From an uncultured Eudoraea sp. (lineage in GTDB: Bacteria > Bacteroidota > Bacteroidia > Flavobacteriales > Flavobacteriaceae): 32,611 nucleotides of DNA. The DNA lies in NCBI GenBank assembly GCA_947258555.1, contig CAMYJF010000019.1, positions 1-32,611 of the forward strand, in the 5' to 3' direction. Below are positions 11,601 to 30,755 of this stretch, piece after piece. The notes under the pieces were generated by a model. It did no database searches. It was given only the letters and a program-made list of their open reading frames with translations, and had not been told where the DNA came from. How positions within the stretch are numbered: the first letter of the stretch is position 1; each line of letters starts with the position of its first letter. A program made the position numbers and the translations under genes.

Positions 11601-12305
11601 ATGTCCAAGATCACCATTGCCATAGACGGGTACTCATCAACAGGTAAGAGTACTATTGCCCGTCAATTGGCAGAAACCCTGGGCTATATCTACGTAGATT
11701 CCGGGGCTATGTACCGAGCCCTTACTTTATATGCCCTACGCGCTGAACTTATCCAAAATGATGTATTAGATAAGGAGAAACTTATCCAAAGCTTACCGTC
11801 CATTTTCCTGCAGTTCACTTTCAATCCCAAAAAGGGATATGCAGAAGTGTATTTAAACAACAAGAATGTAGAAGGAGATATACGTAAGCTCGAAGTTTCG
11901 AAATATGTGAGTCGGGTTGCCGAGATACCTGAAGTGCGCAGAAAGTTGGTGGCTATCCAACAGGAGATGGGAAAAAACAAAGGCGTTGTGATGGATGGGC
12001 GCGATATTGGCACAGTAGTCTTCCCTGAAGCTGATCTGAAATTATTCCTCACTGCCGCTCCTGACAAAAGGGCCACACGCAGGTATAAAGAACTTCTGGA
12101 GAGAGGGGATGAGGTTACCTTTGAAGAGGTGCTTGAAAATGTAGAATTCCGCGATCATATCGATTCCACCCGAGCGGTTTCTCCTCTAAAAAAAGCTGAA
12201 GACGCCATTGTGATTGATAATACGGATATGGGGCTGAAAGAACAGTTCGAGAGGGTATTAAATATTGCCAATAGGGTGATCAACCAAAAAAAAAAGGATG
12301 CCTGA
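11601..12305 (+). CDS. cmk: Cytidylate kinase
   Basis: Phosphorylates CMP and dCMP with ATP in pyrimidine nucleotide salvage (cytoplasm). The P-loop is GYSSTGKSTIAR near the N-terminus, followed by YVDSGAMYRALTLYAL; the CMP-binding insert and MDGRDIGTVVFPEA are both present, as is the lid region RATRRYKELLERG. At 234 residues it has the normal size. It is 11 bases downstream of lon. The last codons (Lys-Lys-Lys-Asp-Ala-stop) are part of a bidirectional terminator hairpin: the ten-A run encodes the lysines. In many bacteria cmk is next to rpsA; here a convergent LysM gene lies between them. Confidence 0.97.
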   Translation: MSKITIAIDGYSSTGKSTIARQLAETLGYIYVDSGAMYRALTLYALRAELIQNDVLDKEKLIQSLPSIFLQFTFNPKKGYAEVYLNNKNVEGDIRKLEVSKYVSRVAEIPEVRRKLVAIQQEMGKNKGVVMDGRDIGTVVFPEADLKLFLTAAPDKRATRRYKELLERGDEVTFEEVLENVEFRDHIDSTRAVSPLKKAEDAIVIDNTDMGLKEQFERVLNIANRVINQKKKDA

Positions 12306-12317
12306 GCATCCCTTTTT
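12286..12317. terminator. Bidirectional terminator overlapping the end of cmk
   Basis: A run of ten A (12286-12295) precedes GGATGC (12296-12301), loop CTGA containing the cmk stop codon, then GCATCC (12306-12311) and a T tract to about 12317. Read on the minus strand it is followed by ten T, so it serves both cmk (plus) and the convergent LysM gene (minus). The left arm is inside the cmk coding sequence. Confidence 0.88.
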
Positions 12318-12335: not shown

Positions 12336-12716
12336 TTATAGGTTGGGTATCACCAATACTTGCTCTGGATGAATAACATCCGGATTAGAAAGGAGATTTG
12401 TATTTGCTTCAAAGATCTTGTTGTACTTCATGGCATCACCGTAGTAATGCTTAGCTATCTTGCTTAGCGATTCTCCGCTTCTTACAACGTGCCTGTGGTA
12501 TACAGAATCATCTGCTACCGTAATATTAGCTTTTAGATCGGATGGACTATCGCCACCAACGGCCTTGATTTTATCCCATAGCAGGTTTTTTTCATATTGC
12601 GTATTTGCCTGGCCTTTGATCTTCAAAACGCCATTCTCTTCATTTACGCTACCGTCTTTGATTCCCAGCTGTTCACCAAGATCCAATACGGGCTGATATT
12701 TCGCTTTTACACTCAT
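12336..12716 (-). CDS. BON-LysM protein, Kbp (YgaU)-like
   Basis: A 126-residue protein with a BON domain in the first ~70 residues and a C-terminal LysM domain starting at HVVRSGESLSKIAKHYYGD and ending in VLVIPNL. This domain order and the lack of a signal peptide match E. coli Kbp (YgaU), a cytoplasmic K+-binding protein; the sequence itself does not show the ion. The LysM domain would normally suggest peptidoglycan binding, but no export signal is seen. It sits convergently to cmk, sharing a terminator, and divergently from rpsA. Upstream on the minus strand, TATCTTTA (12753-12760) is a one-mismatch -7 box and may be its promoter. Confidence 0.88.
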   Translation of the reverse strand: MSVKAKYQPVLDLGEQLGIKDGSVNEENGVLKIKGQANTQYEKNLLWDKIKAVGGDSPSDLKANITVADDSVYHRHVVRSGESLSKIAKHYYGDAMKYNKIFEANTNLLSNPDVIHPEQVLVIPNL

Positions 12717-14955: not shown

Positions 14956-15495
14956 ATGAGCCAAAAAGTACTCCTTACCGCAAAAGAGATCGATATCCTC
15001 TTACATAGGCTCGCGTGTCAATTACTTGAAAGACATCTCGATTTTTCAGATACGGTCCTGATCGGTATACAGCCTCGTGGAATTTACCTTGCAAATCGAT
15101 TGACCAAGATCCTGAGTGAAGAGTATCAGGTAAAAGATATTGCACTGGGTTCTTTGGATATCACATTTTTCAGGGACGATTTTAGAAGAGGGGAGAAGAT
15201 CCTTGAAGCAAGTACAACGGAGATCGATTTCCTGGTAGAAGGGAAACGCGTTGTGCTGATCGATGACGTCTTGTATACCGGCCGGAGTATCCGTGCCGCC
15301 CTAACAGCCATACAGTCCTTTGGCAGACCTAAAGAAATAGAATTACTGACACTTATAGACCGACGTTTTAGCCGGCATTTACCCATTCAACCTAATTATC
15401 GGGGGAGACAAGTAGATGCGATCAATGAGGAGAAAGTCAAAGTGCTTTGGAAAGAGAATGATGGAAAGGATGTTATTTACCTAATAAATACCTGA
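14956..15495 (+). CDS. pyrR: PyrR-family uracil phosphoribosyltransferase/regulator
   Basis: A phosphoribosyltransferase of the PyrR type, which in other bacteria combines uracil phosphoribosyltransferase activity with RNA-binding attenuation of pyr operons. The PRPP-binding loop VVLIDDVLYTGRSIRAAL is clear, as are IGIQPRGIYLANRL and the basic stretch LIDRRFSRHLPIQPNYRGRQ. I chose the ATG at 14956 (179 residues, MSQKVLLTAKEID) because the longer frame starts inside the promoter box. pyrB follows after 3 bases. The predicted leader (~25 bases) is too short to carry a PyrR-responsive antiterminator/terminator pair, so classical attenuation at this operon looks unlikely. Confidence 0.93.
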   Translation: MSQKVLLTAKEIDILLHRLACQLLERHLDFSDTVLIGIQPRGIYLANRLTKILSEEYQVKDIALGSLDITFFRDDFRRGEKILEASTTEIDFLVEGKRVVLIDDVLYTGRSIRAALTAIQSFGRPKEIELLTLIDRRFSRHLPIQPNYRGRQVDAINEEKVKVLWKENDGKDVIYLINT

Positions 15496-28614: not shown

Positions 28615-28964
28615 AAAAATTCAGCAAGATCCTCGCATTGATATTTGCCCTCCTATTTATATGGGCGGCTTTTGTGCAACACAACGATCCAGATGCATTG
28701 CTTTGGTATGCCATTTATGGCGTGGCAGCTGCGGCATGCCTCTTGTTTTATTTTGACCGGTTTCATCCTGCTTTGGGAATAATACTAGCCATTCTTTATC
28801 TGATCGAAACCGTACTGGTATGGCCTGAATCCTTTGAAGGCTTTACGATCGGTGAAGGCGACATAGTAAATATAGAGCGCGGCCGGGAAGCTTTTGGATT
28901 GTTAATTTGCGGACTCTTTATGATCTTCCTAAGCTGGCGAAGCATCAAACGGAGAAAATCATAG
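28611..28964 (+). CDS. TMEM220-family small membrane protein
   Basis: A 117-residue integral membrane protein with about four hydrophobic helices. The family signature is QHNDPDALLWYAIYG after the first helix; the tail RSIKRRKS is basic. TMEM220 proteins occur in bacteria and animals with no established function. The start ATG overlaps the eboF stop (ATGA), so it is likely translated with the ebo cluster and may be a seventh component. Its stop (28962-28964) lies next to the convergent dnaX stop (28959-28961), leaving no room for a terminator outside coding sequence. Confidence 0.88.
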   Translation: MKKFSKILALIFALLFIWAAFVQHNDPDALLWYAIYGVAAAACLLFYFDRFHPALGIILAILYLIETVLVWPESFEGFTIGEGDIVNIERGREAFGLLICGLFMIFLSWRSIKRRKS

Positions 28965-30755
28965 TTCCAGGTCAAAAGTCTTGCGTAGCAGGTCCATGTC
29001 GGGATTCTTACTTTTTAGCTTTTCGTATTTCTCCTCCGGGGTATAGGCATATTTCTTAGCCTCTTGTTCATTAACTAACAGTTCCAGGCTGATCTCTGTA
29101 TTTTTCAGCTTGTTTCGAAGAAAATGCATTAAAGGTTCCCGCTCCATATCCAACTCTTTCTTCATGCTGTGATTCGGCAAGGTATATTGAATACTATGAT
29201 CCCCCGTCAATTTTGGGTTGCTGATTGTTAAATTGGACGAGAGGATAGGGCGACCTTTTTTCAGTAGTTTTTGAGCGTATTCAGTCCACAGTTTCTCCAA
29301 TTCTTCCTGGGTGAAAGGACTCGTATTGACCTCAATGGTATCGGCGATCACTTCCTGGTTACGTATCTCGTGATCCCGTTTGGCCTGAAGGCCTGCAATA
29401 GACAATCCGGAAATGCGCTTACCCCGATCCTTAATATTCAATTTTTTAGCAGGGCTTGCGGGTAGCGGCTCAACTGCGGCCTTAATGGGTTGGGATCCTT
29501 CTTCCTTTTTTACCGGTTCAGCGGTTTTCTCTTCATACGTCTTTAAGGTGTCCACTCTGCGTTCAGCAAGTGTCTTTCTTTGTATTTTTTCCTGGGTGCC
29601 TCCATGAACATCCAGATCTTTTTTAAAGAAATGGGCTGCAGGGATCAGGAAATTAGTCAGGGTAAGACCAAGGACGCTACGTTTGTTTTTTTTTTCAGCT
29701 TCGAAAGTAAGGGAAGCTAGTTTCATCAGGGTCAGTTCGACAAGGAGCCGGTGATTCTTGCTCGTCTTATACTTCAGATCACATTGATTGGCAAGGTCGA
29801 TCGCTTTTAATAAGAATTCCTGGGATGTTTTTTTAGACTGTTCCAGGTAAAGGGATTTCACTTGTTCACCTACTTCAAGCAAGGCAATGGTCTCTTCATG
29901 ACGGCAAACCATAAGATCCCTGAAATGTGATGCGAGTCCGTTGATAAAATGATGTCCTTCAAATCCTTTGGACAGGATGTCGTTGAATAACAGGAGCAGA
30001 TCAGGAATATTATTTTCCAGGATCAGGTCTGTAGCCTTGAAGTAAATATCGTAATCGAGGACATTTAAATTTTCAGTGACGGATTTCCGGGTAATTTTTT
30101 TCCCGGCAAAGCTCACAACCCTGTCGAAAATCGATAAGGCATCTCGCATGGCACCATCTGCTTTTTGTGCTATAATGTGCAAGGCATCTTCCTCTGCTTC
30201 AATTCCTTGTTGTTCAGCGATATACTGCAGGTAATCGGCAATATCCTTAATGGTTATTCGCTTAAAATCAAAGATCTGGCATCGAGAAAGTATCGTTGGG
30301 ATGATCTTATGTTTTTCGGTGGTGGCCAATATAAAAATGGCATGCGCTGGTGGCTCTTCAAGCGTTTTCAAAAAGGCGTTAAATGCCGATTGAGATAGCA
30401 TATGTACCTCGTCAATAATATAGACTTTGTACTTGCCGACCTGAGGCGGGATCCGTACCTGGTCTGTGAGGCTTCGTATGTCATCTACGGAATTATTAGA
30501 TGCGGCATCCAATTCAAATATATTGAAGGCAAAATCCTCATCTGCCTTTTGGGTACCATCCTCATTGATCTTTTTGGCCAGGATCCTGGCACAGGTAGTT
30601 TTCCCAACACCGCGTGGACCACAAAAGAGTAAAGCCTGGGCAAGGTGGTTGCTTTCAATGGCATTTTCAAGCGTAGTCGTAATAGCTCCCTGGCCAACGA
30701 CATCCTTGAAATTCTGAGGCCTGTATTTCCGGGCCGATACAATGAAAGGTTCCAT
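28959..30755 (-). CDS. dnaX: DNA polymerase III subunit gamma/tau
   Basis: Clamp-loader ATPase of the replicative polymerase. AAA+ domain: FCGPRGVGKTTCARILAK (Walker A, residues 45-62), YIIDEVHMLS (Walker B), ILATTEKHKIIPTILSRCQ (sensor 1 and Arg finger region). Domain III ends near LLVELTLMKLASL (about residue 350). The 240-residue tail is charged, as in tau. After Walker A the usual four-Cys zinc module is absent: KKINEDGTQKADEDFAFNIF replaces it. At codons 354-357 (plus-strand 29686-29695) the gene carries ten A followed by C. Slipping by one base gives a stop after Gln-Thr, making a 359-residue protein that would resemble gamma. The start ATG at 30755 is 41 bases from a -7 box. Confidence 0.97.
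   Translation of the reverse strand: MEPFIVSARKYRPQNFKDVVGQGAITTTLENAIESNHLAQALLFCGPRGVGKTTCARILAKKINEDGTQKADEDFAFNIFELDAASNNSVDDIRSLTDQVRIPPQVGKYKVYIIDEVHMLSQSAFNAFLKTLEEPPAHAIFILATTEKHKIIPTILSRCQIFDFKRITIKDIADYLQYIAEQQGIEAEEDALHIIAQKADGAMRDALSIFDRVVSFAGKKITRKSVTENLNVLDYDIYFKATDLILENNIPDLLLLFNDILSKGFEGHHFINGLASHFRDLMVCRHEETIALLEVGEQVKSLYLEQSKKTSQEFLLKAIDLANQCDLKYKTSKNHRLLVELTLMKLASLTFEAEKKNKRSVLGLTLTNFLIPAAHFFKKDLDVHGGTQEKIQRKTLAERRVDTLKTYEEKTAEPVKKEEGSQPIKAAVEPLPASPAKKLNIKDRGKRISGLSIAGLQAKRDHEIRNQEVIADTIEVNTSPFTQEELEKLWTEYAQKLLKKGRPILSSNLTISNPKLTGDHSIQYTLPNHSMKKELDMEREPLMHFLRNKLKNTEISLELLVNEQEAKKYAYTPEEKYEKLKSKNPDMDLLRKTFDLEL
29677..29695 (-). promoter_or_regulatory. Candidate slippage/frameshift site in dnaX
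   Basis: The coding strand reads G followed by ten A and a C, framed GAA AAA AAA AAC, so it includes the classical slippery heptamer A AAA AAC. Adding one A in the transcript, or -1 ribosomal shifting, gives CAA ACG TAG (stop at 29679-29677). Losing one A gives a stop after a further eight or so codons. No terminator-like hairpin explains the run. Regulated use is inference. Confidence 0.5.

Follow-up and report, generated by a model that had tools for sequence, protein, structure and literature searches.

A conserved adenine run in Bacteroidota dnaX as a candidate slippage site for tau and a gamma-like short protein

Introduction

The dnaX gene of Escherichia coli is read with a -1 programmed ribosomal frameshift, described as involving a seven-base site, a stem-loop and a Shine-Dalgarno (SD)-like stimulator (PMC5009743, PMC3290774). 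In Thermus thermophilus, dnaX is described as undergoing transcriptional slippage on a run of nine adenines (A9), with stops in both other frames (PMC1088944, PMC5009743). Antonov et al. 2013 reported dnaX genes divided over two ORFs, 17 genes from 12 genera, nine with 10 As, all of them in the -1 direction and Chlorobi among them, for which transcriptional slippage was proposed (PMC3711429). A poly-A frameshift in Blochmannia dnaX has likewise been proposed to be corrected by transcriptional slippage (PMC3017870), and most other bacteria are stated to keep no frameshift signature in dnaX (PMC3290774).

Here we analyse the dnaX gene in a 32,611-nucleotide stretch of DNA (the window) from an uncultured Eudoraea sp. 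(contig CAMYJF010000019.1, assembly GCA_947258555.1), together with dnaX loci of its relatives. Comparison of these sequences leads us to propose that a run of ten As (A10) in the gene is very probably a selected slippage site, at which RNA polymerase would slip so that one gene gives rise to full-length tau and a gamma-like short protein.

Results

The dnaX gene of the window and its predicted products

By its domain matches, the gene is a standard DnaX clamp-loader gene (Table 1). The Pfam match to domain III (PF12169) is weak, with 23.3 bits against a cut-off of 24.4, and ends at residue 349, and the match to DNA_pol3_delta_C ends at residue 346. The A10 lies directly 3' of domain III in the framing GAA AAA AAA AAC and occupies CDS nucleotides 1061-1070, its first A falling in codon 354; a first-pass annotation of this DNA had placed the run here, and both its coordinates and its frame are exact. 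The nine bases 3' of the run are CAAACGTAG (29685-29677), which the A11/-1 frame reads as CAA ACG TAG, giving an off-frame TAG two codons past the run. Translated in silico, the A10 form encodes 598 aa (68.0 kDa), A11 encodes 359 aa (40.6 kDa) and A9 encodes 365 aa (41.1 kDa), with 366 aa for A12 and 358 aa for A8, and every non-tau product ends shortly past domain III. The 359-residue product of the -1 reading had been predicted in the first-pass annotation, and our translation agrees; its further claim that loss of one A soon leads to a stop also holds, although the stop comes after nine codons and not about a dozen. Tau is encoded at full length in one frame, the tail sharing the frame of domains I-III. 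The gene fits a Thermus-type layout, with at least nine sense-strand As after domain III and off-frame stops two and nine codons further on.

Table 1 Features of the dnaX locus, in window coordinates
Feature	Position	Strand	Basis
dnaX, DNA polymerase III subunit tau, 598 aa	28959..30755	minus	ORF; NCBIfam PRK14971 residues 1-598; Pfam AAA+, lid, domain III
A10 slippage run (candidate), codons 354-357	29686..29695	minus	sequence; kept in relatives
TAG, stop of A11 (-1) frame, end of predicted 359-aa gamma-like product	29677..29679	minus	sequence, in-silico translation
TGA, stop of A9 frame, nine codons on, end of predicted 365-aa product	29658..29660	minus	derived from sequence and product length
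Domains I-III, common to tau and predicted gamma-like product	29689..30755	minus	ORF, Pfam, in-silico products
Tau-only tail, predicted missing from short product	28959..29685	minus	ORF, in-silico products; homologous tails in relatives, displaced ones included

Long A and T runs in the window and its genome

Runs of at least nine As occur at two places when both strands of the window are considered, in dnaX and at the end of cmk, as the first-pass annotation had noted for runs of ten. At 12286-12317 of the window, the other A10 lies in the last codons of cmk (NQKKKDA), just before a hairpin (GGATGC-CTGA-GCATCC) and CTTTTTT, and an ORF convergent with cmk lies on the other strand at 12336-12716. 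The run thus resembles half of a bidirectional terminator, which fits the terminator that had been invoked to explain it.

In the 2.73-Mb genome we found five runs of at least ten As or Ts. Apart from that of dnaX, two fall in the final codons of cmk and of a small membrane-protein-like ORF, one of 14 is intergenic and one, a T16, lies within an ORF. The dnaX run alone among the five is a sense-strand A-run well inside a gene. The membrane-protein-like ORF (141 aa; A10 at 3315-3324 of L214, contig C7 of the same genome, about 29314-29323) is directly followed by a dihydrofolate-reductase-like ORF, the run marking the junction of the two genes. The T16 (4279-4294 of L216, contig C34, about 15278-15293) lies within a 301-aa lipoprotein-like ORF (YFFFFFAPE) and is a candidate for phase variation or slippage; the other ORFs sampled from this genome (303 kb) contain no T run of nine or more.

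For 303,570 bases of ORFs on 17 other contigs of the genome, synonymous shuffles predict 12.9 (sd 2.7) runs of at least nine As and 8.6 (sd 2.3) of at least nine Ts; the observed numbers are three and zero. Long A and T runs are thus selected against in the ORFs of this genome, as expected where the polymerase slips on such runs; Baranov et al. 2005 used under-representation of this kind as a sign of polymerase slippage (PMC1088944).

The run is conserved after domain III

We assembled 216 dnaX loci, comprising that of the window and 215 relatives, which were picked by domains I-III only, the run not being used. In the phylum set, dnaX was found in 389 of 392 genomes, and 130 among the best-scoring loci were used, 105 from the window's class and 25 from other classes. 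For the second set, a run-less gene served as query against 198 genomes from the order to which genome G230 belongs, which we infer to be Bacteroidales, and dnaX was found in 192 of them; 90 loci were used, and removal of the repeats L234, L235, L236 and L248 left 86. The names Bacteroidia, Bacteroidales and Flavobacterium are applied to the G genomes by likeness to named loci, and the sample leans to relatives of the two queries, 46 of the 216 loci coming from the window's own family (f1). The run was scored in the 130 codons after residue 330. A further 80 named loci were left out of the statistics, as the run there overlaps with the seed peptide FEAEKKNK; at least nine As are present in 72 of these loci.

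At least nine As follow domain III in 167 of the 216 loci, that is, in 98 of 105 in the window's class, 15 of 25 in other classes (all A9) and 54 of 86 in the second set. Of the 143 genera and 75 families distinguished by code letters, 108 and 48, respectively, have the run in at least one member. Equally sized stretches just before, further before and further after this region contain such a run in 1, 0 and 3 of the 216 loci. The longest run is A9 in 26 loci, A10 in 111, A11 in 26, A12 in three and A13 in one, with A8 in five and shorter runs in 44, a two-peaked distribution with modes at 4-5 and, as the main one, at 10, whereas the preceding 130 codons peak at 5. Within family f1, the window's own locus included, 44 of 46 loci have A10 and the other two A11; interruption of the run by AAG codons, which we looked for in these close relatives, occurs in none of them.

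Could the run carry no signal and merely reflect a lysine-rich linker that happens to use AAA in AT-rich genomes? One A10 is not rare in the window, as 16 of 100 shuffled windows reach at least the observed number of A9 matches, and a single A10 in a lysine-rich stretch is by itself weak evidence and only mildly remarkable; its significance comes from the conservation of the run in relatives. In the 147 loci that either lack a run or keep the tail in frame, synonymous shuffles yield a run in 40.4 (sd 4.3), meaning that the amino acids of the linker account for 40 of the 98 runs observed there. Against such an origin stand the excess of 98 over this expectation, the retention of the run in 12 loci whose gene GC exceeds 50%, the selection against runs in the genome's other ORFs and the conservation of off-frame stops, and the displaced tails described below already contradict it, so we regard it as scarcely credible. 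Chance as the source of the A-run is likewise ruled out by the control windows, the synonymous shuffles, the off-frame stops and the displaced tails.

To judge from these loci, what is conserved is the run and not the protein: its length is kept, but its codon phase and position move. It starts at codon position 2, 3 or 1 in 85, 54 and 28 of the 167 loci, respectively, and the middle 90% of runs (5-95% range) fall at codons 351-373. Six runs beyond codon 380 were counted, of which that of L194 has no near stops and is perhaps due to chance. Outside the window's class, the 14 loci of family f24 (among L189-L213) all keep tau in frame and share a run of exactly A9 that does not vary in codon phase, which by sequence is a more uniform and more Thermus-like state.

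Stops in the two non-tau frames are also conserved, in favour of the first-pass reading of the run. Both frames stop within ten codons past the run in 155 of the 167 run-bearing loci, against 28% expected, and the median distance from the run to the first stop is 1 codon in one frame and 5 in the other, compared with 4 and 17 elsewhere in the same genes.

The tau tail lies in another frame in many relatives

The tail is in frame with domains I-III in 98 of the 167 run-bearing loci, requires one extra A in 62 and requires one fewer or two more in seven; seven 'tau' frames under 150 codons were included in these counts. All displaced tails (62 of 62 and 7 of 7) match the profile of the in-frame tails, with a median E of about 1e-39, and the zero frame of these 69 loci runs into a stop 0-6 codons past the run. 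It follows that tau itself should need slippage there. Expression of the tail from a start of its own is unlikely in most of these loci, as few start codons are near: an ATG lies within 15 codons of the start of the displaced tail in 2 of 62 and 1 of 7 (3/69), and any of ATG, GTG or TTG in 7 of 62 and 2 of 7 (9/69). This displacement of the tau frame in many relatives, invisible from the window alone, is in our judgement the strongest evidence for the slippage-site reading of the window's dnaX, which the comparison supports.

Genus g2, which belongs to the window's family, shows a single arrangement: each of its 25 loci has A10, and the tail requires one extra A. Since four of five named Flavobacterium records (L018, L020, L022 and L023) have the same arrangement, g2 is probably Flavobacterium; the fifth, L017 (Flavobacterium sp. 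YO12), has A9 and requires one fewer or two more As. The agreement of all 25 g2 loci makes sequencing error unlikely as the general source of displaced frames, although single cases such as L017 could be sequencing errors. On a tree of domains I-III from all 216 loci, built by a quick search in IQ-TREE, run-bearing loci switch frame at least 24 times, compared with a mean of 56.7 and a lowest value of 50 in 30 label shuffles, and presence of the run also changes at least 24 times. The frame is inherited, yet has often been switched.

Frame changes of this kind might also suggest phase variation, in which slippage during DNA replication would flip single cells between tau and gamma alleles, given that runs of 9-13 As are indel-prone, that run length differs between species and that genus g3 displays three states in four loci. 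However, the 25 g2 loci are identical in both A10 and frame, the tree shows strong inheritance of the frame, and a gamma-only allele would leave a cell without tau, all of which make phase variation a highly improbable explanation.

Transcriptional slippage or ribosomal frameshifting

We propose that RNA polymerase would slip on the A10 while copying dnaX, producing transcripts with A10 and others with more or fewer As. Transcripts that keep the tau frame would give the full-length protein of 598 aa, and the others would reach a stop after two to nine codons, yielding a gamma-like subunit of the clamp loader (358-366 aa) with domains I-III only. In E. coli, the tau tail binds the polymerase and the helicase. 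In relatives, the tail would have drifted repeatedly to the one-more-A frame and more rarely to the one-fewer-A (or two-more-A) frame, and tau would depend on slippage wherever it is displaced. A run slippery enough to feed all three frames would leave the DNA frame of the tail only loosely constrained. The run, its conservation, the off-frame stops and the displaced homologous tails are plain to see in the DNA; from them we infer that slippage takes place, often and during transcription, and that the cell makes both proteins.

The first-pass annotation had offered two mechanisms, slippage in the transcript and a -1 ribosomal shift, of which the former is better supported here. A programmed -1 frameshift of the E. 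coli dnaX kind, taking place within the run at A AAA AAC or A AAA AAG, would find its site in the window, where A AAA AAC forms an in-frame X_XXY_YYZ heptamer, and layouts needing a -1 shift are in excess by 62 to 7. This bias fits the Thermus pattern, described as the addition of one or several As in decreasing proportion (PMC5009743), but it fits -1 ribosomal shifting as well. The seven loci that need the opposite direction nevertheless break a one-direction rule across relatives, and Antonov et al. 2013 treated both shift directions as a sign of transcriptional realignment (PMC3711429). Moreover, the run is kept at nine or more As though seven bases would do for a ribosomal shift.

Signals that might stimulate a ribosomal shift were looked for on both sides of the run. 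SD-like motifs are in slight excess just upstream, in 14 of 167 loci against 7.6 expected, about twice as many; visual inspection of the 16 bases that precede the run of the window shows none. Downstream, 14% of 60-nt windows have a folding z below -2 compared with 7% of controls (n = 110), but the mean z is near that of controls (-0.51 against -0.32; a random draw of 110 of the 167 run-bearing loci), which speaks against a conserved RNA structure there; the window's own downstream z is -0.60, with 54 of 200 shuffles folding as well, and a search of Rfam for an RNA stimulator gave no match. Ribosomal frameshifting is therefore an unlikely account of the run, and on these sequences polymerase slippage is favoured because of the two directions, the length of the run, its free codon phase and the lack of a conserved stem-loop.

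Loci without the run

No run of at least nine As follows domain III in 49 of the 216 loci (7 of 105 in the window's class, 10 of 25 in other classes and 32 of 86 in the second set), so that the short product would there be absent or made otherwise. No common alternative slippery signal was seen among these 49; 20 of them do contain an in-frame X_XXY_YYZ heptamer, its location differing from locus to locus. In several run-less dnaX genes of Bacteroidales (named or inferred), a short palindrome, GGGC-N3/4-GCCC, occupies the place of the A-run in the same codon phase. It lies in the linker at about codons 357-360 in L038, L045, L057, L078, L142, L144 and L166, is exact in six of these loci and reads GGGCGTAGCTC in L038, and could be either an RNA element or a protein motif.

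Discussion

Our comparison of dnaX across relatives suggests a model in which the gene in Bacteroidota is 'frame-neutral'. We consider it reasonably likely that slippage on 9-13 As feeds three frames, that the frame of the tail drifts as a result, and that whole genera such as g2 rely on RNA-polymerase error for tau, with selection keeping the length of the run and the off-frame stops in place of the reading frame. If polymerase slippage on the run is real, (i) the duality of tau and gamma by slippage would be the common state across much of a large phylum with gut, soil and marine members, and not an oddity of Thermus; (ii) the purpose of gamma, an old question, would become testable in many species, including those with natural losses of the site; (iii) intact two-frame dnaX genes may be annotated as truncated or frameshifted; and (iv) the natural series of run lengths, phases and frames could be used to measure how efficiently, and in which direction, the polymerase slips in vivo.

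Earlier work has described slippage of the Thermus type and, in 2013, two-ORF dnaX genes with 10 As from nine species, which may include Bacteroidota. We have not found in print the wide extent of the run, the repeated switching of frame or the opposite-direction layout, and among the matches listed in the open-licence literature no paper has slippage in Bacteroidota dnaX as the subject of its title or abstract. The two-ORF genes of Antonov et al. 2013 are matched by the 62 of 167 loci in which the tail follows the A-run in the one-more-A frame and tau would need recoding, whereas the window's gene, having a single frame, offers no frame transition for a search of that kind to detect; the opposite-direction layout of our seven loci is absent from that report as far as it was available to us (PMC3711429).

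The Blochmannia case, as described, resembles these loci in combining a homopolymer frameshift in dnaX with slippage as its proposed correction, but its run, in the gene of an endosymbiont, is situated past the gamma/tau boundary, where the sequence encodes tau alone. With E. coli, as described, the window shares the gene and the logic of a gamma ending just past the shift site, but it has a longer, pure A-run and lacks a conserved stem-loop. Between Thermus and the window, slippage and both products have been demonstrated only for the former, which has A9 where the window has A10. Like the Thermus gene as described, that of the window has tau in one frame, at least nine As, close stops in both other frames and tau and gamma as its predicted products, and this one-frame layout, with a run and an in-frame tau, is found in 98 of the 167 run-bearing loci.
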